A DNA stretch of 64,000 nt. It comes from Fragilariopsis cylindrus CCMP1102 (lineage: Eukaryota > Bacillariophyta > Bacillariophyceae > Bacillariales > Bacillariaceae). A model generated the notes under the pieces. The model was not told where the DNA came from, did no database searches, and saw nothing but the letters and a program-made list of their open reading frames with translations. The translations under genes were made by a program, and so were the position numbers. Location of the stretch: NCBI GenBank assembly GCA_900095095.1, contig FMBT01000310.1, positions 372,001 to 436,000 of the forward strand. The letters run 5' to 3'. Of the stretch, positions 9,331 to 40,710 are shown in pieces. Position 1 is the stretch's first letter. Every line of letters begins with the position of its first letter.

Positions 9331-11002
9331 TCATGCATCGAAAGCTGCCAATGCCTGCTCGAAGTCAGCTTTTATGTCATCGAGGTCCTCATATCCCACC
9401 GAGACCCGTACTGAGGCAGGCAGGACGCCAGCGGATGCTTGTTCTTCAGTGTTGAGTTGCTGGTGTGTTGTTGAAGCTGGATGAATGACGAGTGTACGAG
9501 AGTCTCCCACGTTTGCTAGGTTGGCAGTTATTTTTAAATTGCTGATGAAGCTCATTCCTCTCGCCTTTTCCTCGTCCGCATCAGCTCCCTTCACCTCGAA
9601 GCAGAAGACCGAACCGAAGCATTCAGGACGGAAGTATTTCTTTGCATTTTTATGTGATGGGTGTGATGGGAGAGATGGGTGAAGAACAGAACCCTCCTTC
9701 ACTTTTGGATGTTTTGAGAGCCAAAGCGCGAGAGCATTGGCGTTCACAGAGTGAGCCTTAGCTCGTAGCGATAATGTCTCGATCCCTTGAATTAATTGCC
9801 AGGCGTTAAATGGTGAGATGCATCCTCCCATGTCACGAAGCGTTTTAACACGTGCCAGAAGAATAAATACTGTATTGGTTGCCTTAACACCAAAGATAGG
9901 ATGTTCTGCAAATACGGCACCATGATATGAAGCCTGTGGTCCTGCAATCAGAGGGAACTTTAGTGAGCCATCTGCATTCTTCGTTAGCCAGTTGAAAGAT
10001 GAGCCGTCAACAATAATTCCTCCAACTGAAGTGCCATGACCTCCGATCCACTTGGTTGCAGATTCAACGACGATATCAGCACCGAAAGCCAAAGGCCGAC
10101 AAGTATAGCCTCCCATTCCGAATGTATTATCACATACTATAGGAACCTTCGCCTCGTTGGCGATGGCTTTGATTGCATCGAAGTCAGGAATAGTCCCGCT
10201 AGGGTTGGCTAGAGTCTCGATGTAGATGGCCTATTTATTTTAAGTAGGAGAGATAAAAATTTGAGAAAAAAGAAGAAACGAAATTACTACCAACGGGAAT
10301 ATGCTATACTACACGTGTAATCAAAAGTTCCTACCTTAGTGTTGTCGTCGATAAGGCTCTTGATCTGTTCAGTATCGGAAACATCAGCAAATTTAGCATC
10401 AATGCCGATCTGTTTAAAGGAGTGGCCGAATTGTGTGTGTGTACCTCCGTAGAGTTCAGAAGCAGAGACGAAATTGTCTCCCGCCTGCATAAAGGTCAGG
10501 AGGGCGTGCATCTGCGCTGATTGTCCTGAGGCCACAGCTAGAGCGTTAGGAAGGGTCGCAGCATTGTCACAGTCACCATGAGCTAAACATGGTGCCCTTG
10601 AATGTAGATTGTATTTGAGTTTAAGTGGATAAATAAGAAGCAAAGCAAAACAAAACGGTCAGAGAAAATCGTTAATATGATAAATAAGTAATGAATGTAT
10701 CAAAATATGCAGTCGATTCGATACGATTACTTATAACACTCACCCCTCGAGCTTAGCCATTTTGTATTCGAGAACGTGCGTCGTGGGATTCATAATTCGA
10801 GTATAGATAGGTCCCAGTTCCGATAGAGAAAGAGACTACCGGCATGTTCTGCACTTTTAAACTCGAAGGAAGTTGTTTGAAAGATCGGTACTGCACGTGC
10901 TCTATTATCGGTATCCAATTTATGACCATGGTGGAGCATTGTTGTGGTAAAACCTTCTCCGGGCTTATCGTCGTATGGGTTCGAAGCTTCAGTTGATTTC
11001 AT
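9331..11002 (-). CDS. metY: O-acetylhomoserine (thiol)-lyase type PLP enzyme, three exons
   Basis: Cys/Met-metabolism PLP enzyme expected to make homocysteine (or methionine) from O-acetylhomoserine and a sulfur donor, probably cytosolic. Exons on the minus strand are 11002-10744, 10596-10335 and 10230-9331, all with GT-AG junctions. The joins give KLEG|APCLAHGDCDNAATLP and DDNTK|AIYIETLANPSG, as expected for the family. Motifs include RAVPIFQTTSFEF near the start, IYTRIMNPTT, ASGQSAQ, SASELYGGT, PIVCDNTFGMGGY and the PLP-lysine motif SATKWIGGHG. The ATG at 11002 opens MKSTEASNPYDD and fits the family's usual start. One frame break lies in exon 1 near 10830: AEHAGSLF and SLSELGPIYTR are in different frames, and exon lengths sum to one base short of a multiple of three. 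A broken copy of its 3' part lies at 2739-2962. Confidence 0.88.
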
Positions 11003-26919: not shown

Positions 26920-28256
26920 CGATCTGATAGGTTCTCTTCCCGACACATTTTAACAATAATAATAATAGTTTTGTGTAAATATTGATTGAGATAAGTCCTT
27001 ACAATTATTGATTAGTTAGATGTATATCGTTACTTGAGGCATTGAGATGTGAGCAGTTGTTGATATCCTTCACCTCACCATAATAACTATTCAATTATAT
27101 CTTTTAGTTGAGTGGTTTATCATAATATATCTTTGATTCATCAATTAGATAATAATATTCAGAGGTGGTTCAAAATAATTGGGCCTACAATACAGTATAA
27201 TAATAACATAATAGCATGTATAATATTATATTGGTGAATCCATCAGTTGGATAAGACTCAACTCCGTACTATTACTACTTAGAAAAGTAAATTCATACTA
27301 TTATTCTCATAGTAAAAAATATAGAGTTTGCAACACAATAATAATAACATGTAAATAATGTTAATTTGTACAAGGTAGAAAAAGATGCTGTCTTATAATG
27401 AGATACAGATTGATGGAACTAAAAAAGAGATTGATAAATAACTCAGTAATATCTTTGATTACTATTGAGTAGTTCATGTGATTTCAATGACTATGTGAGC
27501 ACGGACTGTTATCCTAATTTATCTGATAAAAACATCTGTAAATACTACCCCACATATATTGTCTAAAATACTTCTCAATGTGAGCTTTATTATTATATAA
27601 GTACTATCATAACGTACTTATGATTATGCCAATTAGGCTGGAAGAATACTTCATTCTGGTCTATTATCAGGTGGTATTTCAGATGGTTTTTGGCTACTAC
27701 TGATGGAAAGACTATATGATTTTAACTATTTTTATACATTCCTTTTTTTCTTGACAGGTATTGATTGCATAATCACTCGATATTTTATAACAGCATTACT
27801 TATATACTCTTCATTTGGTCAAATAAATGTTGTGAACAAGCCAGGTATTTTAGGATAGGATTACCTGGTGTGCACTCATTTACAATCTTGGTTCACAGCA
27901 AAAAATCAAAGAAGATGATACTCATCGACTTGACATCATCCATAGATCTCTTCCATATATAGGCTCATCTCTTGAAGGAAGAACATTCCATTCTGGGAGT
28001 GAAGTTATGACAATTATTCCATGAAGAGGTGGATTTTAATTATAAATAACCACTTTCATCTGTGGTCAACTATTATTAATATTACTATTAATGGAAATAA
28101 TCAGAAGGATTCATACACTATTTGAGTTGATTGAGTCCTGATTGGTCATCAAGATCTTGATTGATGAGATTTGCTTGGTTGTTTGTTCATCACATGGCTG
28201 ACTGTATTTATATAGTAGTGTCACATAAAATTAAGCCTGGATAAGACTTCACATAC
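26920..28256. other. Intergenic AT-rich region left of the LINE
   Basis: 1.3 kb with no convincing gene. Phrases such as cataagactt/ggataagact and actattact recur loosely, suggesting old repeat material into which the LINE inserted. The open frame at 27765-27962 resembles nothing I can name. Confidence 0.45.
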
Positions 28257-28272
28257 TATTACTCTTGTATTA
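28257..28272 (+). repeat. Left copy of the LINE target-site duplication
   Basis: TATTACTCTTGTATTA, identical to 39112-39127. Its position just before the LINE 5' UTR and its 16-base length fit a target-site duplication made by APE-type retrotransposition. Confidence 0.8.
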
Positions 28273-28399
28273 CTCTTTTCGTTTGGAATAATTTAAAACG
28301 CGCACCTTTGTTTACACATCTACTAAAACAACTAGTACTAAATCTACGTAGAACCTACGTAGAAATCTTTTGACAACCTTTAAATTTGAGGTATCGACC

Positions 28400-31297
28400 A
28401 TGGTAATCATGTCTAATACTATCCAAGCAGGGTGGGATTTTGACAATATTGATAGCATAGTCGATGAACTATCTGTAGGGACTAACTCAAGTTACAAAAA
28501 GAATGGAAATCCGAGGAAAAATGATGGAGAAATGATTTTAGCAAAATCTGCGACAACACATACCGGTATTAGACATGACAACACTGACGAGGAAGGATGG
28601 ACGACGACAAGCCCAGGAAAGAAGAAACCAAAGAAGAATAACAACAACAAAGCAGCATCCACTGAATCGATCATCACGACAATTGATGGAAATATTGATC
28701 AAATTGAAGCAGGGAAAAATAACAGAATCAACGTAACATCACCAGGAAGGAAGTATAAGTGCAACATACCGGACGACAACAGAAAAATCATTGAACTAGA
28801 CTTTAATCCAACAGTCATGACAGATGGAAGAGAAGAACAAGGTAATAATAAACAACAAGACAACGGAGAAGAAGAAGACACCAACAAAACAAACGGACAG
28901 AACAATGGCAGAAGCGAAGAAAACAGAAAAGAAAAAGAAAAAGATAAAAATGAACAAGATGCAGGAAATAACGACGACAGTAACAGAAACAACAATGGAA
29001 GAAATGATCAGGGAGGTAGAGGAGGACGAGGTGGTCGAGGTGGTCGAGGTGGACGAGGTGGAAATAGACCAGAAAGAAAACAAACCCCAAGAGAAGACTG
29101 GGAGACGTACGACTTTTCGATAAGCTTCAATCCAAAAACAATGAAGGATAAGAATCCTAATGCAGAGTTCCAAGCACTACTAATGGAGATGATGAAAAAG
29201 GCACCAGGAATCACGTTTCATCCAACAAATGAAGCAATGTATCCTAAACCAAGTTCATTCACAACGATTCAGGGGTATCCAAAAACAGAAGCAGACTTTA
29301 AAGACTTCTATGAAGTATATGAAAACAAAGGACTAACAATATACAAAATATTTGTAAAAACCACAATGCAATATAATGAATTGGAACTAAGAAACAGTTT
29401 AATGAATTACTTGAGAGGTAATAATCTATGGATGTCAAGCGAGTTAATATCCGAAAGTGTGGATGAAATGATTGGGTATATCAACTACGGACATGATAAA
29501 ATGGTATGGCGACCTGACTGTGAGAAGAAAATAAACAATGGAATGAAAGCATTGATTCAAAGCGAGTCAATACCAGAAGCATTGAGACTAAAAATACAAG
29601 GATTGAAGAAAGGAATCCATGTTCGAGTAGCAACTGGCACAGTACGAGGAGGAACAAGAAATGAACCAGTAATGTGTGAAGGACTGGTACTGAGAACAAC
29701 TAAAGTACAAGCCCGAGCATGCATCGAACTATTAGGATTATTAGATGATAATATTTTAGGAGATTTTTATAGCATAGTACCAAGAGGAGTTGACAAGGAA
29801 CTAGGACCACAAATGTATGGAGACTATCTCAGAGCAAACAATGATATGCTGAATACTATTAGGGCAATAGCAGTAGTGAACTGGCCAGAGGAATTGTTCT
29901 ATGAAACCTACAATCCAGCACTAGGAGTAACAGGAACAGTGGCAAAACAAGTTGACAAATTATTACTGGACGCATGGCATTGCGTAGCGATTGAACGAAC
30001 CATGGAGACAACTACAAGAGGGAAGTATCTGCTACTATTCAGAGAACAAGATATGGAGAAAGCAAAAGAATCGATAGGCAAGTTAATTGAGGATTTCGGC
30101 AGAGCAAGTGACAGAAAATGCGCAAAATTGGCATTGGAGAAGTACAACGAATACCCAGAATTCGATAGTATCCAACGAATATCATCATCAGTACACTCAA
30201 AAGGACTACGAATAAGAGCAATGCTAGAAGCGGCAGCAGGAAAAAGACCAATCAGAACAGCCAAGAAGATTCCACAACAACAGAAATTTCATTTCTTTGA
30301 TGTACCACAAGAGCTACAGAAACAACCGCTACCAAATCAGACACCAACATACAGCAATATAGTAACAAACCAAAACACGACGACAAAGAAACAAACAATG
30401 ATAGCGCAATCCACACCACAACAGAAAACGCAACCAAACTTGCGACAACAGAGCCAGTTGACGCAGACAACACTACTATCAACACAAGCATCACCAGACG
30501 CGAGGACCGTAGCAACAGCGAACTCGGGACTATCGGATCAACACACGATAGCAACCATGATGACACAGATAACAACCCAGTTCAGCGAAATGGAGAGAGA
30601 TAGAATAATGCGAGAAGACAGAAATGAGATGAAACGACAAGAGCGCGAAACCAAAGCAGAAGAGAAACGTGAAGAAAGAGACGCAAGAATGGAAGAAATA
30701 CGGCTTCAAACAGATACAAGAATGGAAGAAATAAGACTCGAAACAGAATCAAAGATGAAACAAGCTGAAGTTCAACGAAACGAAAGAGAAACAAGAATGG
30801 AAGAGAAAAGATTAGAAGCAGAAACAAAGATGTACTCATTTATGCAAACAATGATGACATTCAATATTAACAAGAACATAAACCAAGGACAAGTACCAGC
30901 TACATTAACAACCGGAACTACAGAACAAACAAGCGCACTCACAAACAGTATTGCCACGACAAATACAGCAACCTCATCAGAAAAAAGACCACTATCGCAG
31001 CTATCCAATGACAATGAAGAAACAGAAATGAAAGATGCTAGTACAGTAATAGAAACAACAGAAACAGAGGAAGAATCGTCGCCAATAAAAAGGAATAAAC
31101 CACTAACAGGAAGCGAGGAAGTAGGAAATGAAGAATCGACCAACAACGATATGGAATTAGTGATAGAAAAGGATGATCCAACCAGCAATAGCGAAATAAA
31201 ACAAAAAGATACCGGATCATTCACAGAAGGTTTCAACAACCAACAATTTACAAGTACAGAAGCAATCACTCCTAGGACGGGGGTGAACCAACAATAA
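28400..31297 (+). CDS. LINE ORF1 protein: RGG box and coiled coil
   Basis: About 965 residues from ATG 28400 (MVIMSNTIQAGWDFDN); the frame is open a little further upstream to a TTG at 28370. ORF1 proteins coat the element's RNA and chaperone it. Visible parts are: a charged, Lys/Asn-rich N-terminus; an RGG box of about five GGRGGRGG repeats (residues about 203-225), a likely RNA-binding patch; a globular mid-region (residues about 235-640) starting YDFSISFNPKTM and including YNELELRNSLMNYLRGNN and GKYLLLFREQDMEKAKESI; a Gln/Thr-rich linker; a long charged coiled coil (about 731-815, repeats of RMEEIRLETES type) for oligomerisation; and an acidic Ser/Thr tail. No RRM or CCHC knuckles are seen, so the RGG box is the best RNA-binding candidate. 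The mid-region resembles nothing I can name. Confidence 0.82.
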   Translation: MVIMSNTIQAGWDFDNIDSIVDELSVGTNSSYKKNGNPRKNDGEMILAKSATTHTGIRHDNTDEEGWTTTSPGKKKPKKNNNNKAASTESIITTIDGNIDQIEAGKNNRINVTSPGRKYKCNIPDDNRKIIELDFNPTVMTDGREEQGNNKQQDNGEEEDTNKTNGQNNGRSEENRKEKEKDKNEQDAGNNDDSNRNNNGRNDQGGRGGRGGRGGRGGRGGNRPERKQTPREDWETYDFSISFNPKTMKDKNPNAEFQALLMEMMKKAPGITFHPTNEAMYPKPSSFTTIQGYPKTEADFKDFYEVYENKGLTIYKIFVKTTMQYNELELRNSLMNYLRGNNLWMSSELISESVDEMIGYINYGHDKMVWRPDCEKKINNGMKALIQSESIPEALRLKIQGLKKGIHVRVATGTVRGGTRNEPVMCEGLVLRTTKVQARACIELLGLLDDNILGDFYSIVPRGVDKELGPQMYGDYLRANNDMLNTIRAIAVVNWPEELFYETYNPALGVTGTVAKQVDKLLLDAWHCVAIERTMETTTRGKYLLLFREQDMEKAKESIGKLIEDFGRASDRKCAKLALEKYNEYPEFDSIQRISSSVHSKGLRIRAMLEAAAGKRPIRTAKKIPQQQKFHFFDVPQELQKQPLPNQTPTYSNIVTNQNTTTKKQTMIAQSTPQQKTQPNLRQQSQLTQTTLLSTQASPDARTVATANSGLSDQHTIATMMTQITTQFSEMERDRIMREDRNEMKRQERETKAEEKREERDARMEEIRLQTDTRMEEIRLETESKMKQAEVQRNERETRMEEKRLEAETKMYSFMQTMMTFNINKNINQGQVPATLTTGTTEQTSALTNSIATTNTATSSEKRPLSQLSNDNEETEMKDASTVIETTETEEESSPIKRNKPLTGSEEVGNEESTNNDMELVIEKDDPTSNSEIKQKDTGSFTEGFNNQQFTSTEAITPRTGVNQQ

Positions 31298-31529
31298 AGG
31301 CACCTCAAGTACCTTTCTAACGAAAAAGCATGATGACAAAACAAAAGATAATACAAAAGAAGGAACGCAAGTAGATATCAATAAACAAACAAGAGACCAA
31401 TCAAACAATACAAACAAAAAGCCTGATCCAACGGGTGGCAAATCAAACAACATAACAGAACAATTAGCAAAAACAACGAACGCATTCATACCAACAAAAA
31501 TACTACAACAAAGATCAAAAGCAAACAAA

Positions 31530-34500
31530 ATGAAAAGTACTGGAAATATTACAGAGCCACTACCGATAGAAACGAGATTAGAACTACTGAAAGAAGCAAT
31601 AACAAAACTTAAACGCATTCGTAAATTAGAACAAGATACTTACAAAACAACAAGTCTTATTAGCGGAACTAATCACTACTCCGACGATGATGACAGTAAT
31701 GAAGAAGAAACAGATATAGCAGATGTAATGAATAACCTACCTAGACTACAAGAAAGGGACAGATGTGATAGTGATAGCGAGGATGATAGCGACAACGACA
31801 GTGATGACGATGAAGAAATTGAGGAGGAAAGTGAGAGAGTGCCTATAGTAATAGTCGAAACGGTGACCGAAGAAGAAACAACAGAAGAGGCAAACAACAA
31901 TCAAGAGAAGAACGAGGGAAAAGAAGAAAATGAGTACAGTAAAATGCCAGGATTACAGGACAGAAACAGAGAGGACAGCGATAGCGAAGATGATGAGGAA
32001 GATGACAAGGAGGACAATAAACATGACCAACAACAACAACAAAATATTAGGACTATACACACTATAAATGAGGCCAACAATGGAATAAAAACTAAATTAG
32101 TGCGAAATAACAAAGACCCAAGCCAATTAAGGACTAAATTATCGCGAATTGCAGAAATAAAAACTAAATTAGTGCGAAACAGCGAATTAAGGACTAAATT
32201 ATCGCGAATGGAAAAAGAAAACATTAGGACTATACTCAACGATGAGGTTGAAACTACAGCATCAATGGAAACAACAACAACAAGAGCTATAGGGAATAAC
32301 AGTGACTACGGAAATGGAAACAACAGTGAAGAAGATCTATTCTTTGAGCCAAGCGACGATGAGGGCGAAAAAGAAGATATACAGAATAATATTAACTATA
32401 ACAATGAAAATAAAGCAGCAACAACAACAACAACTACAACAACAACACCAACAACATCAAACAAAATGAAGATCACACAAGACAACCTACCGTTTGGATA
32501 TATCTGTGATGATATAGCAATAGGCAATGATACACCGTACGTTAGAGTATACTGCCAAAATGTATGTGGAATATATGATAGAGAAGGTATAGGATTAGAT
32601 TCAGCATTCAATGAAATGAAACAAGCAGGGGCTGATATATTTACGTTTAACGAGACACACGGAGATGAATCAAATGCCTTAACGAGAAGTGTAACAAGAA
32701 TGTCAAAACAAAGAATGTGGAGAAATAATAATGAAGATTGCAAAATAGTACACTCGTCATCAACTGCACCAGTACTCACATTTACGAAACCTGGAGGAAA
32801 TATGGTAGGAATAACAGGATCATTAGTAGGCAGAATAAGAGAAACAATCACAGATCCGTATGGAAGATGGTGTGGCTACACACTGATAGGAAAAGATAAC
32901 AAAGAAATAATGGTGCTAACAGCATATAATGTATCACAACACAAAAATGCAAAAGTAGGAGATGATACACTGTACAACCAACAAACAGCATTATATAAAT
33001 TAAAAGATATTAGAGATCCGGATCCAAAGAAATTATTTATAGAAGACTTAACAGCACTAGTAAAGAAGGCAAGAATGGAAGACAAAGATATCATATTAAC
33101 AGGTGACTTTAATGAATTAGTAGGAGATGATCCGAACGGTATGGTGAAAGTTATATCTGCAGGAAGACTTACAGATGCCCATAGTCATCAACATGGTATA
33201 GTAGACATAACAACGTATACAAGAGGAGTCAAAAGATTAGATTATGTATTTGTAACGCCAAGGCTAGTAGACCACATACTTCGAAGTGGATACGAACCTT
33301 TCCATGCAAGAATAGCATCAGATCACAGAGGCTATTTTGTGGACTTTGCACTAGCTGGATTCCTAGACAGACAGTTACTATCGATATTCTCAGCATCATC
33401 AAGAGCAATCAGAGGAACCCATCCGAAGAACATCACAAAATATGTGGAACACCTCCATAAAGTTTTCAAGATGAGAGATATCTACAGGAGAGTAAAATTA
33501 CAAAAGAACTGGTATGAAAAGAAGAAATTGGAGGCACTTGACAGAGAAATAACAGCAGTGATGCTAGAAGCAGAAGAACAGTGCAGAATACATCATAGAG
33601 AACCATGGTCAGAGGAAGTGAATGAAGTGATGACAACAGCGAACATACTGCGAATCCACTTGTCAAGCCTGAAAAACAATATCGATTGCAGCAACCAAAT
33701 ACAACAAAAGCAGCTCTTGTTGAAGCACCAAATACAACTCCCAGAAGACATTGCAGAGGCCTCCAAAGCGCTGAGTTTAGCGCAGAAGAAAAGAAGAAAA
33801 TTAATAAGAGATAACAGAACAAAGACGACTAGCATAGGAGAGGAACAAGAAGCAGCATATGTAGCAATGAACCCAGAAATGGATGCAAAGAGGGCAGCGC
33901 AGATATTCCAGAGAGCAAGAGATACAAAACAGATGATGTCGGAGCTACCATCAAAAATGAACTGTCCAGGGGGTCTATCAGCCGTACTAGTTCCACTACC
34001 AAAAGAAGGAATTGAACTTGAGTATTTGGCAATAACAGATGGACCAACATTAGAAAGAATAATACTGGAGAAGAATATTCGACACTTCAGGCAAGCAGAA
34101 TTCACTCCATTAGCATCACCAGAAGTAATACGCAAGATAGGTTTTGGTGCAGATACGGAAACAGCGGAACATCTGCTTGATGGAACTGGCGATCCAACTG
34201 ATATAACGGATGATGAATGGGCAAGATTCCTCCTAACATCAATGAAAAGAAACTCAGAAGAACTAAAAATAGAGATAACAGCAGAGAAAATGATGGAGAA
34301 GTATACGAGGTGGAACGAACGGACAAGTACATCACCATCAGGCAGGCACTTGGGACATTTCCATGCATTATTTAGACCACTAAAGGCAAAGAACAAGAAA
34401 CACCGTGAGCAACTGGATGATATCAGAGACGATATAATTGATTTACATGCAACAATGCTGCAGACAGCGTATGACAATGAGCATGTCTACAAACGATGGG

Positions 34501-35852
34501 AGTACATCCTCACCTGTATGCTGGCTAAGGAATCTGGAATACCAAGAATACACAGACTACGAGTGATACACCTATACGAATGTGACCTGAATCTACTATT
34601 TTCATTAGTCTTCAGAGAACTGGACCAACACTGTGAAGATAACTTCCTACTCAACAAGGGAGTGTATGGATGTCGACCGAATAGACGAGCAATGGACCCA
34701 GTCTTTGTAGATGTAACCCAAAATGAAATGGCAATGGTAACACGGAAGGCCCTGGTGAAATTCAACAACGACGCAACAGCATGCTTTGACAGAATATTAG
34801 TACATTTACTCAGTCTGTGCTTACAATCTTTTGGATGTCCCAAGAAACTAACAAAAATATTAGGAGAACTGCTAAGAGTAGCAAAATATGCAATAAAAAC
34901 TGGAATAGGAATATCAAAAGAAACATACCAACACTCAGATGAATCACCTGCATTTGGATCTGGACAAGGTAGTGCAGCATCAGCACAAGGATGGACTAAA
35001 TTAGTATCAATGCTGTTTGATATTCATGACAAGTATGGACACGGATGTAAATATGAAGACCCATGGAGACTATATAGTGAAATAATTGGCATGTTAGGAT
35101 TTGTGGATGATAATAATATTACAAACAATGGTGAAGACTGGGAAACAGTAAATGATATCATTATTAGAACACAACATGATGCACAGCTATGGAATGATTT
35201 ATTGCGAGCAACGGGAGGAGCTCTGAATCTTGACAAGTGCTTTGCACAAGTACTAGCATTTCAATTTGGGCTGAATGGAGCACCAGTTATCGCACCAGCG
35301 GATCCAACCAACATAATAATAATAAAAGATAGACAGAACAACAAAGACGTCATAATCAAACCAATATCACCATATACTACGTATAGGTTCCTAGGCACAG
35401 AACAAGGAACAAGCAAGAATCAGAAGTCACAACAAGGAAAATTAGTGAAAACATCATCAACACATAACAGAAAGCTAGCTTGCTCAGCAATGTCACCAAG
35501 ATGCGCTTGGGTCCATTATACGGCAGTATTCCTAAGCAGTGTAGGCTATCCGCTCAGCATGTGTCACCTAAGCCAACATCAATTACATGATCTACAGAAG
35601 AAATATATCCCAACACTACTAAATAAGATCAGTATAGCAAGAACACATGCCCATGCACTGGTATTTGGACCAAGAGCGTACGGAGGAGTAGGTTGTAATG
35701 ACCTACGAATAGAACAAGGATTAGATGCAGTACAAAATCTAATCAGGCAATTACGAACACCAGGCTACGGCAAACAACTAGCTACAATCTTCCTGAGAAC
35801 GTTCCAACATGCATCTGGACTATCGAAACCACTCCTAGAGTACCCGGAATAA
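31530..35852 (+). CDS. LINE ORF2: APE endonuclease and reverse transcriptase
   Basis: 1440 residues; the frame is open from about 31287, so it overlaps the ORF1 stop by about 11 nt in another register. The N-terminal 300 residues are acidic (DSDSEDD runs) with short internal repeats. The endonuclease has VYCQNVCGI, E375 in FNETHGD, GDFNE (D526, N528), LDYVFVTP and SDHRG (D598, H599). The reverse transcriptase (about 930-1250) has GVYGCRPNRRAMDPVF, motif A FNNDATACFDRI (from 1078), motif B-like GSGQGSAASAQG, motif C FVDD (1191-1194) and motif D GGALNLDKCF. It would nick the target and prime cDNA synthesis there. FVDD in place of the more usual FADD is a tolerated variant in this class. The frame ends (LLEYPE) where homologous sequence appears to continue in the ORF3 frame. 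Confidence 0.9.
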   Translation: MKSTGNITEPLPIETRLELLKEAITKLKRIRKLEQDTYKTTSLISGTNHYSDDDDSNEEETDIADVMNNLPRLQERDRCDSDSEDDSDNDSDDDEEIEEESERVPIVIVETVTEEETTEEANNNQEKNEGKEENEYSKMPGLQDRNREDSDSEDDEEDDKEDNKHDQQQQQNIRTIHTINEANNGIKTKLVRNNKDPSQLRTKLSRIAEIKTKLVRNSELRTKLSRMEKENIRTILNDEVETTASMETTTTRAIGNNSDYGNGNNSEEDLFFEPSDDEGEKEDIQNNINYNNENKAATTTTTTTTTPTTSNKMKITQDNLPFGYICDDIAIGNDTPYVRVYCQNVCGIYDREGIGLDSAFNEMKQAGADIFTFNETHGDESNALTRSVTRMSKQRMWRNNNEDCKIVHSSSTAPVLTFTKPGGNMVGITGSLVGRIRETITDPYGRWCGYTLIGKDNKEIMVLTAYNVSQHKNAKVGDDTLYNQQTALYKLKDIRDPDPKKLFIEDLTALVKKARMEDKDIILTGDFNELVGDDPNGMVKVISAGRLTDAHSHQHGIVDITTYTRGVKRLDYVFVTPRLVDHILRSGYEPFHARIASDHRGYFVDFALAGFLDRQLLSIFSASSRAIRGTHPKNITKYVEHLHKVFKMRDIYRRVKLQKNWYEKKKLEALDREITAVMLEAEEQCRIHHREPWSEEVNEVMTTANILRIHLSSLKNNIDCSNQIQQKQLLLKHQIQLPEDIAEASKALSLAQKKRRKLIRDNRTKTTSIGEEQEAAYVAMNPEMDAKRAAQIFQRARDTKQMMSELPSKMNCPGGLSAVLVPLPKEGIELEYLAITDGPTLERIILEKNIRHFRQAEFTPLASPEVIRKIGFGADTETAEHLLDGTGDPTDITDDEWARFLLTSMKRNSEELKIEITAEKMMEKYTRWNERTSTSPSGRHLGHFHALFRPLKAKNKKHREQLDDIRDDIIDLHATMLQTAYDNEHVYKRWEYILTCMLAKESGIPRIHRLRVIHLYECDLNLLFSLVFRELDQHCEDNFLLNKGVYGCRPNRRAMDPVFVDVTQNEMAMVTRKALVKFNNDATACFDRILVHLLSLCLQSFGCPKKLTKILGELLRVAKYAIKTGIGISKETYQHSDESPAFGSGQGSAASAQGWTKLVSMLFDIHDKYGHGCKYEDPWRLYSEIIGMLGFVDDNNITNNGEDWETVNDIIIRTQHDAQLWNDLLRATGGALNLDKCFAQVLAFQFGLNGAPVIAPADPTNIIIIKDRQNNKDVIIKPISPYTTYRFLGTEQGTSKNQKSQQGKLVKTSSTHNRKLACSAMSPRCAWVHYTAVFLSSVGYPLSMCHLSQHQLHDLQKKYIPTLLNKISIARTHAHALVFGPRAYGGVGCNDLRIEQGLDAVQNLIRQLRTPGYGKQLATIFLRTFQHASGLSKPLLEYPE

Positions 35853-35977
35853 GAGCACCACACCTTGAAGGACACTATTATGTACACATAAGAAGATTCC
35901 TAGCGAAGCACAGAGCTAGTCTGGAGATAGAATGTATACCAAAATCAATAGATGAAAGAATAGGAGACACATACATC

Positions 35978-38900
35978 ATGGATGTAGTATGTGCACCAGA
36001 AGCAGCATCGACATTGGATAGAACACAACTGAAACACTACACTGATGCAGAAATCAACCAACTTCACTACTGCAAGAGCTACCTACAGGTAAAAAGAATT
36101 TCCGATTTGTGCACAGCTGATGGAGCTTTTATACTACCATCCATAGCAAAAGGTGAAAGAAGCATCAGACAATGTACATCCAAACTGAATGAAATAACAC
36201 AAGAAAGACCTGGAGATCAATCGTGGACAGTGTGGAGAAAATTCCTTAAGACAATATGCAAACCCAGTTCGAACCAAGATCCAAGATTTGATCCAAGATC
36301 CGATCCACGTTTCAAGGAACCAAGTACCAATCCACGATCCAAGGAACCAAGCTCAGATCCAAGAGCTGGACCTAGGTTCAACGAACCAAGTACCAAGTCA
36401 CGACTCAACCTATACACTGAGCCAAGAACTGAACCAACCACAATGAAAAATAGTGATACCCTCATCAACCATGAGGGTCTACAGCAGCGAAAAGAAGAGA
36501 TAGACAAAGTCAGTATTGGGACGTACATACTTAAATATTGGATTGGAGTACCGTACAGAGGAATTGTAATGAACAATACAGGCAAATACTACAAAATACT
36601 ATACGAAGATCATGACGAAGAAGACCTTAACCATACAGAGGTAATACAATATGAGAAAAAGTACAGAGGAGAGGGAAGAATGACAAAAGAAGTAGGAAGA
36701 CGAATGAGACTTACAAAACCGTTAGGGGACTGGATCGTACAAGCTAATGATTCTGAGAGGCTGTGGCCATTCTATTATTCAGAAGAAACAGACGTACTAT
36801 ACAGGAGTTACAGAAAAGAATGGCACACCAATGGAGAATACTACTATGACTGCCATAAACTAGCAGACAACGATACATACAACTACAAACCCGATGGAAA
36901 TGTGGAACGACTACCGAATGATGCAACACCAACAGACGTGATGGACACCGAAGACGGATGGAGAATATCAGAACACCACTCAATAAGACAACAAGAAGAA
37001 CAATGCGTGGAGAGCAAAACGATAATACAATATCTACAGTCACAAGAAGAACATGTGTCACAGTACTATGCAGAAATAAACTTTCTAACAACGCCATTTG
37101 AAGTTTACGAACTCATCAAATCACCAAGAAAATACAACATAGCAACAGATGGAGGAGCAATACCACTCAAAGGATCTCTGGGATTTGTTGTTGCCAATGA
37201 AGATGGAACAGTACTATTATCTTGCTACGGACAACCATCAGGAAATGACCCACTATCATTCAGATCTGAAATATGTGCACTACTAGCAGCAGCAAAGCTA
37301 CTACAATTGATAACAGAATACTATGACAACCAAATACAATGTGAAGAGCCGGCAAGAGGAAAAATACAGGTATACACAGACAGCTTAAGTATGATAAAGA
37401 AATTAGAAGCATATGATGAATATCCAACAGCTCACCTGAAGACAGTACTTAACTCAGAGTGGGATGTCCTTTCAGCATTAAGTAGGACCTTGAAGAAATT
37501 CAGAACTTACCCAAAACTAAGCTGGGTAAAAAGTCACCAAGATGATATGGTTTTTGATGAGAAAACAATGCCACTGGATGCCTATCTGAACTCAGAAGCA
37601 GATGAATTAGCAACGATAGGACTGAAGCGACTACAAGAAAAACCTATTGTGCCAATGGATCCAAACACATGCATACAGTTCCATATCGAAGGAAGAACAA
37701 TAACAAGAAACTTCAAAAACACAGTAAGAGAAATAATACAACTGAAACCACTCCGAAAATTCTACTGTGACAGATTCAAGTGGAGTGACAATATATTTGA
37801 TCTAATTGATTGGGACATCTTTCGACCAGTATATAAGAAACATTTAGCTACTAAAGGAATACAGTGGATACACAAATTCTGCATTAAGAAGCTGCCAACA
37901 GGAGAAAGAGTCCATCAACGAGACCATTTCCATGACAAAAGATGTGCATCATGTTTGGAGCATGAAGATGATAATCACATACTTCAATGTTCTAAAAGAA
38001 GAAGTGTAAGAAAGAAGGTTGTCAATCAAATAAATGTACTGCGCAAAACAGTGGACAAGAACTTGTGCGACATACTACAGGAAGGATTAATGGCTTACTT
38101 CAACAGGGACTGCATGTCCAACACCATGTTTAGAATAAGAGGAGGAAAAGGCATGGAAAGGTACAAAAATTTAATAGATGAACAAACAGTAATAGGATGG
38201 GACAATCTGTTAAGAGGAAAATTTTCAAAGGAATGGAGAATACAACAGAAAGCATATAAAACAAGACTAAGATTAGTAGACCCAATTGAGTATGATAAGA
38301 TAAAAAGAGCTCAGAAACGAAACCAAGAGCAACAAAATGAAAATGAACCAAACAACAACAAGAAAACAACCAAAAGCAAAAACAAAACAGAAGAATTTCA
38401 CGGTTTCTTTCAGTCAATAGTACCAATAATATTAGAAATGTGGACAGATAGGTGCATTGACAGAAATACACCAGTATTAGGGGGCAGAATAGTAGCAGAA
38501 TATGAATCTCTATGCAAGAACGTAACCCACCTGTATACACTGAGAGAAATGGTACTGCCAGAAGATGAAATTAAGATATATGATGAAACACTACTATCAA
38601 AACTTGCAGACACAAACCAACAATTGAAAAAGTGGATCAACAGATGGAGACCAGTAATAGATCATAGCATGAAAAGAGTGAAAGAATTAGCACAAGAAAA
38701 CAGCAAACCGATATGGCAACACTTCACTGCAAACAAACCAGCAAAGACCAAGGTATCACGGAAACTATTGAAGCAATTGAAACCAAAGAAATATTCTAAC
38801 AACCCATTGACGAACGTGTACACCAGATTAAAGAAGAAGCGATCATCAAGTAGAGTACTTCCAGTAATAAAGAAAATCAAACATACAGTTAATCATTTGA

Positions 38901-39013
38901 TATCAACATTGTACAACAAATTGGGAAAGAAGAGATCAACTAGCAGAGAGCAAACAGCATTGGAGGTGGGAAAGCAGATAATTGATGACAGATTTGGAGA
39001 TGAACCTAAGTAA
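35978..39013 (+). CDS. LINE ORF3: Tudor-like segment, RNase H and zinc knuckle
   Basis: 1011 residues from the ATG at 35978; the frame is open from about 35699, overlapping ORF2 by about 150 nt in the -1 register. Parts: a DPRF/DPRS/KEPS degenerate repeat (residues about 95-145); a segment (about 179-226) with YRGIVMNNTGKYYKILYEDH and DEEDLNHTEV, which looks like a Tudor/agenet-type chromatin-reader fold; RNase H with D391 (ATDGG), E431 (RSEICAL), D468 (YTDSLS), H520 (HQDD) and D542 (SEADELA); a knuckle C656-x2-C659-x7-H667-x3-C671 like those at the C-terminus of many LINEs; and a long basic tail. RNase H would remove RNA from the cDNA hybrid. In most RNase H-bearing LINEs this domain sits in the same ORF as the polymerase. 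Confidence 0.85.
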   Translation: MDVVCAPEAASTLDRTQLKHYTDAEINQLHYCKSYLQVKRISDLCTADGAFILPSIAKGERSIRQCTSKLNEITQERPGDQSWTVWRKFLKTICKPSSNQDPRFDPRSDPRFKEPSTNPRSKEPSSDPRAGPRFNEPSTKSRLNLYTEPRTEPTTMKNSDTLINHEGLQQRKEEIDKVSIGTYILKYWIGVPYRGIVMNNTGKYYKILYEDHDEEDLNHTEVIQYEKKYRGEGRMTKEVGRRMRLTKPLGDWIVQANDSERLWPFYYSEETDVLYRSYRKEWHTNGEYYYDCHKLADNDTYNYKPDGNVERLPNDATPTDVMDTEDGWRISEHHSIRQQEEQCVESKTIIQYLQSQEEHVSQYYAEINFLTTPFEVYELIKSPRKYNIATDGGAIPLKGSLGFVVANEDGTVLLSCYGQPSGNDPLSFRSEICALLAAAKLLQLITEYYDNQIQCEEPARGKIQVYTDSLSMIKKLEAYDEYPTAHLKTVLNSEWDVLSALSRTLKKFRTYPKLSWVKSHQDDMVFDEKTMPLDAYLNSEADELATIGLKRLQEKPIVPMDPNTCIQFHIEGRTITRNFKNTVREIIQLKPLRKFYCDRFKWSDNIFDLIDWDIFRPVYKKHLATKGIQWIHKFCIKKLPTGERVHQRDHFHDKRCASCLEHEDDNHILQCSKRRSVRKKVVNQINVLRKTVDKNLCDILQEGLMAYFNRDCMSNTMFRIRGGKGMERYKNLIDEQTVIGWDNLLRGKFSKEWRIQQKAYKTRLRLVDPIEYDKIKRAQKRNQEQQNENEPNNNKKTTKSKNKTEEFHGFFQSIVPIILEMWTDRCIDRNTPVLGGRIVAEYESLCKNVTHLYTLREMVLPEDEIKIYDETLLSKLADTNQQLKKWINRWRPVIDHSMKRVKELAQENSKPIWQHFTANKPAKTKVSRKLLKQLKPKKYSNNPLTNVYTRLKKKRSSSRVLPVIKKIKHTVNHLISTLYNKLGKKRSTSREQTALEVGKQIIDDRFGDEPK

Positions 39014-39111
39014 TAAATAAATGTAGAATAAATTTGGCGGGTAGATTGTTGACTTTCTGTCTTTCTAAGACCTTAAGGAGCAAAGCTGCAGCTATTAAAT
39101 AATAAGTTATA

Positions 39112-39127
39112 TATTACTCTTGTATTA
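39112..39127 (+). repeat. Right copy of the LINE target-site duplication
   Basis: TATTACTCTTGTATTA, an exact match to 28257-28272, 98 bases after the stop codon of ORF3. It marks the 3' junction of the element. Confidence 0.8.
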
Positions 39128-40710
39128 TTATATTTGAACAGTTGCTGCACTTGACACAATGATTGATATGGGCAATGCCATAGATAAGTACAATATTGAG
39201 AGGAACCACCAACAAGACGGCACCACACCAGTCCCATACATGTGCAAAAAATCATAAGGATAAACAGAAGAATAAATCTAATGGCATATTATCTGTCAGA
39301 GTAGGGTAATATTTTGGGTATAGCACTTTCCATTCCTCAGTCAACAATCATTTTGATGTAGAAATATTTAGCAGAAGCAGCAGTAGCAGGAGCAGTGTGA
39401 GAGACTTCTTGATGAATAATGCTATATATTTATTATGCTTGCATTGAGAGGAGTGAGCAATCATCATTGGATTGAAATTAAATTGAATGGCATTCAAAAC
39501 AGCAGACTAAGCATATCCAGTTGGATATATGTCTTCCATCAACACCGTGGCAACAACAGCGCAGTGTAGTAACCTGGTTGTTGATTTCAATCAAAATCAT
39601 CATCATGTGGAAATGAGAAGCTCTATAGTTAGTGTGATTTCTAGTAGTATGCGTAAAACCCCCAAAAAAGAACACAACAAATTCATCTCCATTACTCTGT
39701 ATACATACTTCTATTTTGGTTGGTATGATTCTACTATGCTGGTATCTTTCTTTCATTATACAGTACATTATAGCGGCGGCTACAAAAACTCGTTCTTACA
39801 CGTAGCAGATCTTTCTCCTCTCCCCTCCCCTTTTTCTGTTTCTGGTGTCAACCATTAAGTAATTTCTATTTTACTTACCACGATACGACACCACGTGCGA
39901 GTTTTTAAATTCACTTTAGAACTCTCTTCTCCTACTAAGTTAGTAGCTAGCTCCCTTGCTTTAATTTTCTAGCTCCCGTTCTTTTAAAAAAATCTAAATT
40001 ATCATCAAAATAACGAGCGACATACTCGGATACGGTTATAAACGTGTAATTTGTATGCATGTTAGGTGCGAAGGTTACGTAATAGGAATTGTTTCACAAA
40101 AGGATATATGAACGAAGAGAAGTCATCTCTTGTTATCATTATCATTGTCAACCTTCGTCATATACATTGCAGTCATCCATCACCATCATTATCACCATCA
40201 TCACACCATCATCATCATCACTTTCTGCAATTATACCACGATGCTATTAGCAAATTCGAGTGATGACAACGATGATAATGATGATTCATCTACTTTATCT
40301 TCCATAACGATTTTCTTTACATAAAACAACAACAACACCACAGCAGCAGCAACATCAGCATCAGCATTAAAAGCACTATTAATAACAAATAGATATTTAT
40401 CGTTCATTGCGAGAATAATAAAGCCAAAACAGATTTAAAGAACAGTAGAAGGAGAATTAACAACATCAAAAAATTCATACACCGACAATAAGTAGTAGAC
40501 ACTGCCGCCGCCGCCACCCGCCGTCATCGTACAAGTAATTGCCATCATCATCAATATGATCATCAACAACTACAGATATTCAACACCAGCAGGAGCAGGA
40601 ACAGGAGCAGCTCCAACAACAACATCAACAGCATCAGCAGCATCAGCCATCAGCAAAAACAACGCAGACGAAGACGAATAATACACACACCACCACCACC
40701 ACATTGTTCT
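39128..40710. other. Intergenic region between the LINE and the PERK-like kinase
   Basis: 1.6 kb. The first 400 bases continue the AT-rich target sequence. From about 40130 the sequence becomes CAT/CAC- and AGC/AAC-rich microsatellite (atcaccatcatcacaccatc type), probably the long 5' leader of the kinase gene. Open frames here (39529-39858, 40066-40263) are low-complexity and not called. Confidence 0.45.

Follow-up and report, generated by a model that had tools for sequence, protein, structure and literature searches.

A young, polymorphic LINE insertion in the diatom Fragilariopsis cylindrus, with a hairpin tail, a Tudor-like insert and ORF1 types found with two reverse transcriptase families

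In this study we examine a large retrotransposon of Fragilariopsis cylindrus CCMP1102 that lies at about positions 28,257 to 39,127 of a 64,000-nucleotide stretch of contig FMBT01000310.1 (positions 372,001 to 436,000, assembly GCA_900095095.1), which we call the window and whose numbering is used throughout. The element is very probably a diatom long interspersed nuclear element (LINE) of the APE type, which entered one haplotype by target-primed reverse transcription. The insertion is real, young and polymorphic; its kind is known, but the combination of its parts is unusual. An earlier note, made from the sequence of the window, had reported a nearly whole LINE between matching 16-base repeats; the parts that lie beyond that finding, namely a conserved hairpin in the tail, a Tudor-like insert in the second open reading frame (ORF2) and the exchange of the first (ORF1) between families, are the more interesting ones. 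Other copies are referred to below by their contigs (C288 and the like) and loci by L numbers.

Results

A probable one-haplotype insertion and the common ends of other copies

The boundaries of the element are as follows.

28273..39114, + strand: LINE insertion, delimited by the common ends of other copies and the empty site
28257..28272, + strand: left target-site duplication, 13 or 16 bp, from the exact repeat, its uniqueness in the genome and the empty site
39112..39127, + strand: right target-site duplication, on the same evidence

As the earlier note had observed, the 16-mer TATTACTCTTGTATTA flanks the element exactly, at 28257-28272 and 39112-39127, and these two are its only exact occurrences in the 67.9-Mb, 818-contig genome (backward control, 0); one of 100 window shuffles contained two or more matches with two mismatches permitted. 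The view that these repeats are target duplications gains an empty site and falls short by three bases. On contig C263 the 5' query matched the left flank alone, and the locus there (L045) aligns with the window at 97.7% identity over 1.6 kb on the left side and in three blocks at 97%, 89% and 90% on the right, with the element absent and a single TACTCTTGTATTA in its place, which is the last 13 of the 16 duplication bases without the leading TAT. We read this collinear contig as the other allele, so that the insertion would be confined to one haplotype. An empty allele lacking a single copy of the 16-mer was the finding that the earlier note had named as telling against it; the empty allele is there, and on a strict reading the complete 16-mer is not. 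Either the duplication is 13 bp long or the alleles differ by 3 bp, and both would explain the shortfall: the element ends in TTATATAT in many copies, TAT is a common terminus of its own tail, and the right-side TAT may therefore be the element's own end, in which case the left-side TAT would be the allelic difference. The duplication length is 13 or 16 bp, and the right boundary is uncertain between 39111 and 39114 because the TA-rich end of the element merges into the duplication.

Other copies were sought with queries from both ends. The 551-bp 3' query, for which the best 40 of 223 candidates were scored, gave at least 42 matches, and the 3' ends of all 41 others fall within 13 bp, at query positions 410-422. 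Each of 30 loci read, the window's own included, ends at element position 10839-10842 in a short TA-rich end and none in poly-A. At the 5' side, 11 of 20 other element matches start at query positions 121-123 and 19 at 121-146, with the C340 match starting at 236. Duplications of their own, of 12-17 bp, flank seven of the 20 shorter loci whose 5' junction can be seen (L024 and L025 representing one junction), and two of the four other full-length copies (C441, 17 bp; C640, 16 bp). The check proposed in the earlier note thus turned out as it had anticipated, with the 3' end and the full-length 5' end held in common and the flanking duplications different. The recency that it had suggested agrees both with presence and absence between contigs whose left sides have 97.7% identity, and with a separate copy on C704 that is 99.7% identical over 1.9 kb and has a different 3' flank; reverse transcriptase (RT) proteins at 100% identity (rounded) occur in three further places.

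Several observations weigh against this reading. The empty site is 3 bp shorter than the 16-mer, C288 and C154 (two of the four other full-length copies) have no duplication of 12 bp or more, and none of that length was present at the junction used in 13 of the 20 shorter loci, although some of these 13 junctions may be breaks in similarity rather than true ends. The constant 3' end together with 5'-truncated copies, and the variable-length duplication together with an empty site, are nevertheless features of LINEs, as is the lack of long terminal or inverted terminal repeats: no direct or inverted repeats of 25 nt or more join the two ends, the direct ones being internal and short-range and the inverted ones numbering zero.

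Two separate short copies, L006 and L022, have flanks that are alike on both sides, as if both had hit a similar place in another repeat, and at C53:61920-79439, C154 and C306 there are LINE copies arranged tail to tail or one inside another. Around the insertion (window 494-50099), host genes match lipase class 3, ABC1 kinase, a Cys/Met PLP enzyme, calpain, amine oxidase and protein kinase; apart from the element's own frames, no ORF of 200 amino acids (aa) or more crosses the insertion site. Elsewhere in the genome, 27 matches to silicic-acid transporters mark the host as a diatom, and 53 ice-binding matches point to one of cold waters.

Coding frames and enzyme domains

The element is organised as follows.

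28273..28399, + strand: 5' untranslated region, from the common 5' end up to 28400, where the ORF1 frame has its first ATG
28400..31297, + strand: ORF1, type I, 965 aa from its ATG, matching no Pfam or PDB entry
31530..35852, + strand: first part of ORF2 (APE-RT), in a frame open from 31287, start codon undecided
35702..39013, + strand: remainder of ORF2, shifted to another frame by a one-base deletion (the third ORF of the earlier note), first ATG at 35978
39014..39111, + strand: 3' untranslated region, from the tail reading and the common 3' ends
32610..33326, + strand: APE-type endonuclease (Exo_endo_phos), ORF2 aa 361-599, by Pfam
34554..35249, + strand: reverse transcriptase (RVT_1), ORF2 aa 1009-1240, by Pfam, with FVDD invariant in both RT families
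37148..37603, + strand: RNase H-like domain, from the first of its conserved acidic residues to the last, by conserved residues and a weak profile match
37817..37993, + strand: zinc-binding zf-RVT-like domain, Pfam-based

The earlier note had counted three long ORFs, a description that gives way to one of two genes. ORF2 is a single open frame of 2,486 aa in C288, 2,489 aa in C441 and 2,445 aa in C640, and against C288 and C640 the window copy lacks one base in the stretch shared by its own two overlapping frames. A true three-ORF element, in which ORF2 and ORF3 were separate genes or joined by programmed frameshifting, would be in keeping with the length of both window frames and their overlap of about 150 nt; we consider it extremely improbable, given that three copies hold both parts in one frame, that the split corresponds to a single-base difference, and that eight of 19 full-length RT matches of the window's own family (family A, below) lie inside frames of 2,443-2,489 aa. 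As a two-gene element split by this deletion, the window copy is probably unable to make the full ORF2 protein, while other copies keep whole frames; in C154, C401 and one C53 copy ORF2 is broken, each time differently. The ORF2 ATG overlaps the ORF1 stop in C640, unlike the window, which has no ATG at that place; the stretch preceding the window's ORF2 ATG (31287-31529), tried as a translated extension, has a ratio of nonsynonymous to synonymous substitution rates (dN/dS) of 0.64 versus C401. Short internal repeats lie at 32084-32226, in ORF2 before the endonuclease and near the onset of similarity to C288 (element 3809), and at 36278-36408, in the linker before the Tudor-like domain.

The endonuclease and reverse transcriptase recognised in the earlier note are present, with the APE-type endonuclease upstream of the RT in one protein, as in LINEs. 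Exo_endo_phos scores 26.8 bits in the window (Pfam cut-off 24.5) and RVT_1 scores 26.9 bits (E 4.6e-6), slightly below its cut-off of 29.6; related copies give RVT_1 matches in C288 and C478 and Exo_endo_phos matches in C288 and C441, and dN/dS in the RT is 0.03-0.04. The RNase H that had also been claimed stands in part: the residues D, E, D, H, D are invariant in order over six sequences from two families, and the region matches the E. coli RNase HI profile weakly (38 columns, probability 30%, E 5e-4), while Pfam RVT_3 found no match in the window copy, and this thin profile support counts against the assignment. RNase H occurs in several LINE clades, among them I, R1, LOA and Tad1. PDB profile searches with the ORF2 of C288, the C-terminal part of ORF2 and the APE-RT part returned nothing relevant and no RT relative. 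In one comparison C441 gave no ORF2 match, yet the RT search gives 87%. A search for part of ORF2 (33630-35849) in viral contigs gave five pattern matches, none of which was confirmed.

A conserved hairpin in the tail

The earlier note had remarked on the lack of a long poly-A tail, and none is present at the 3' end. The tail carries instead a predicted RNA structure of the sort found in stringent-type LINEs, a conserved stem-loop.

39035..39094, + strand: conserved, covarying RNA hairpin of the tail, from RNAalifold, covariation and a genome pattern search

From 32 distinct tails, 18 chosen for difference were aligned, and RNAalifold placed 20 pairs on them. Under this structure 98.9% of cells are paired, versus 91.6% in shuffles. 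Double-sided changes are seen at six of the 20 pairs, against a shuffled mean of 3.8 (6 of 500 shuffles reached this number). The covariation score of 0.220 compares with 0.090 in shuffles, none of the 500 reaching it, and with at most 0.060 for slid partners. A pattern for the hairpin core has 115 matches in the genome and none in the backward control. Among the core matches listed (100 of the 115, the last 20 without letters), 32 distinct strings were available, in which the variable top pair is canonical in 30, with four pair types; going outward, the two positions that follow are canonical in 19 and 11 of the 32, respectively, and the stem is therefore interrupted at those two positions. 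In all 28 loci counted, out of 31 tried, similarity to the window over the last 75 nt equals or exceeds that over the preceding coding stretch (means 97.9% versus 92.4%); L024 and L025 were excluded beforehand, and L032 and L057 are one copy (C288). A hairpin model search found 10 places among 25 sources, although four of these (the window, L057, L065 and L055) belong to the rows used to build the model, as do L039 and L058, and so are no test. The model had no match in the fetched stretches of the family-B copies C478 and C81, nor did Rfam over 28000-40000. Stringent-type LINEs often, though not always, have a partner short interspersed nuclear element (SINE) with the same tail; here, six tail matches beyond the list of the longer query are all short LINE copies, with no SINE among those six.

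Two points weigh against the hairpin: a single tail is not unusually stable (z 0.34, 0.22), and relatedness among the sequences can inflate covariation. The first would also suit a poly-A-dependent, L1-like LINE whose tail has been lost or trimmed and whose hairpin has no role, as would 5' truncation and variable duplications. We regard such an element as highly improbable, since a poly-A end is found in none of the 30 loci read, all 41 other 3' matches stop at the same place, and six hairpin pairs covary. The suggestion that 3' recognition may differ from that of poly-A LINEs is accordingly strengthened by the covarying tail.

A Tudor-like block between RT and RNase H

Two RT families are compared here, A (including the window) and B, which are 30-33% identical. 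In an alignment of four family-A and two family-B rows, family A has a block of about 145 columns between RT and RNase H which family B lacks, and within it lies a Tudor-like domain.

36518..36643, + strand: Tudor-like domain (PF21743), from Pfam, a genome profile search, the family alignment and dN/dS

In the genome search, for which the best 150 of 169 candidates were scored, PF21743 reaches 27.4 bits in the window against a cut-off of 27.2. Pairing these matches by position with those of the RT search, PF21743 lies just downstream of 17 of 19 full-length family-A RT matches, at 25.9-29.9 bits (C469 and C59 having none), and of none of the seven full-length family-B RT matches. The dN/dS of the domain is 0.047 and 0.063 versus C288 and C640, where the adjacent linker has 0.465 and 0.584, and versus C441 synonymous sites are saturated; by this measure the insert is under purifying selection. 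Over its 52 codons, dS of the Tudor-like stretch (1.2-1.6 versus C640 and C288) exceeds the 0.3-0.75 of its neighbours, reflecting either local exchange or noise.

Weighing against this assignment are the score in the window protein itself, 22.8 bits and below the Pfam cut-off of 27.2, and the single-sequence structure models, which are unusable, with a mean predicted local distance difference test score (pLDDT) of 32.6 for the Tudor-RNase H region and 42.4 for the ORF1 core. There is almost an even chance that the match is a small barrel or linker of another role, such as RNA binding, and not a chromatin reader: scores in the 17 copies lie near the cut-off, and the structure model of the region is unusable. 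The difference in dN/dS between domain and linker weighs against such another role, as does the fact that, compared with family B, the block is inserted.

Genome-wide there are at least 139 PF21743 matches, many in frames of about 1,360-1,400 aa, and there are none in 14 control genomes (microbial where named), a weak control. In L079 (C681:4500-5600), the only such frame read, a copia-like integrase, recognised by eye, is followed by a PF21743 match.

ORF1 types shared between RT families

Similarity in ORF1 does not follow similarity in RT. The window and C288 are 98% identical in RT and 23% in ORF1 (over 304 aa), and the window and C640 are 98% and 32%, respectively; conversely, C288 and C441 (family A) are 77% identical in ORF1 to C478 (family B) at RT identities of 32% and 30%, C640 and C81 are 50% identical at an RT identity of 31%, and the window is 68% identical to C297 or C88, whose RT, assigned by position, is about 30% identical. 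Three ORF1 types can be distinguished, each found with both RT families; with family-A RT, the window has type I, C441 type II and C640 type III. The RT tree (nine rows) separates families A and B at 100/100, whereas on the ORF1 tree (10 rows) the RT family must have changed at least three times, and family A as a single clade is rejected (approximately unbiased test, p-AU 6e-44), the RT family of C297, C88 and C265 being assigned by position. To judge from these trees, ORF1 has been exchanged between the two RT families, either by RNA template switching or by DNA recombination.

Repeats are typical places of assembly error and the linkage of ORF1 to RT is by position in C297, C88 and C265, so we considered whether the mosaics are assembly joins between repeats rather than real elements. 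This appears highly improbable: a single duplication encloses each of the window, C441 and C640 copies, which carry three ORF1 types with family-A RT, C478 and C81 could each be followed in one continuous stretch, and the same pairings recur. Because each of the three ORF1 types lies inside one duplication, the mosaics moved as units. None of the ORF1 types gave a convincing match in Pfam or, with ORF1 alignments, in PDB. C62, C712, C809, C66 and C311 hold RTs of a third family, in frames of 544-1,573 aa and with about 25% identity to the window RT.

Discussion

The features described above can be set beside several known systems. Stringent-type LINEs such as UnaL2, ZfL2-1/2, SART1 and R2Bm have a conserved 3'-tail stem-loop and no poly-A (PMC4176376), and the diatom element resembles them in both respects and in its 5'-truncated copies with target duplications. 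It differs in its Tudor-like insert in ORF2 and in its size, 10.8 kb against the 4-7 kb given for LINEs in the same source, the earlier note having remarked that it is longer than most; for the diatom LINE, moreover, tail recognition is deduced from covariation. In CR1/L2 LINEs, ORF1 has evolved reticulately (PMC4120745), and here too one ORF1 type is joined to different ORF2 lineages, although in this case within a single diatom genome, with ORF1 types unlike anything in Pfam or PDB and between RT families about 30% identical. Chromoviruses, Chronos and the CoDi-I copia elements of diatoms carry chromodomains (PMC5348765). As in those long terminal repeat (LTR) elements, a retroelement carries a domain resembling a chromatin reader, and the copia-like frame of L079 also has PF21743; the domain of the LINE, unlike theirs, is Tudor-like by Pfam and lies between RT and RNase H of ORF2, not behind an integrase. 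RTE-like LINEs have been named for Thalassiosira pseudonana (PMC2806351), and are likewise diatom non-LTR retrotransposons. By titles and the beginnings of abstracts, we found no description in the open-licence literature of this diatom LINE or of a Tudor domain in a LINE ORF2.

A mechanism that would accommodate these parts can be outlined. The ORF2 protein would bind the hairpin of its own RNA, in the manner of stringent-type recognition, and its endonuclease would nick the target, whose primer end may pair with the short TA-rich RNA end; the RT would then copy the RNA, often stopping early, and the RNase H-like domain would remove it. The Tudor-like domain may tether the complex to chromatin, and new ORF1s could be acquired through RT switching between RNAs or through DNA recombination. 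A broader proposal, possible but doubtful, is that this LINE lineage took up a Tudor-like chromatin reader in ORF2 to choose its insertion sites, as is thought of chromodomains in some LTR elements, and that it pairs one hairpin-tailed enzyme module with interchangeable ORF1 modules, obtained from RNAs that belong to a LINE family with an RT identity of only about 30%.

Together these elements provide a defined RNA tail on which stringent recognition can be tested far from animal LINEs, a LINE enzyme that contains a domain resembling a chromatin reader, and a clear example of families with young, polymorphic copies that have exchanged ORF1. If it is true that the Tudor-like domain directs insertion, the LINEs and LTR elements of one genome would have converged on chromatin tethering.

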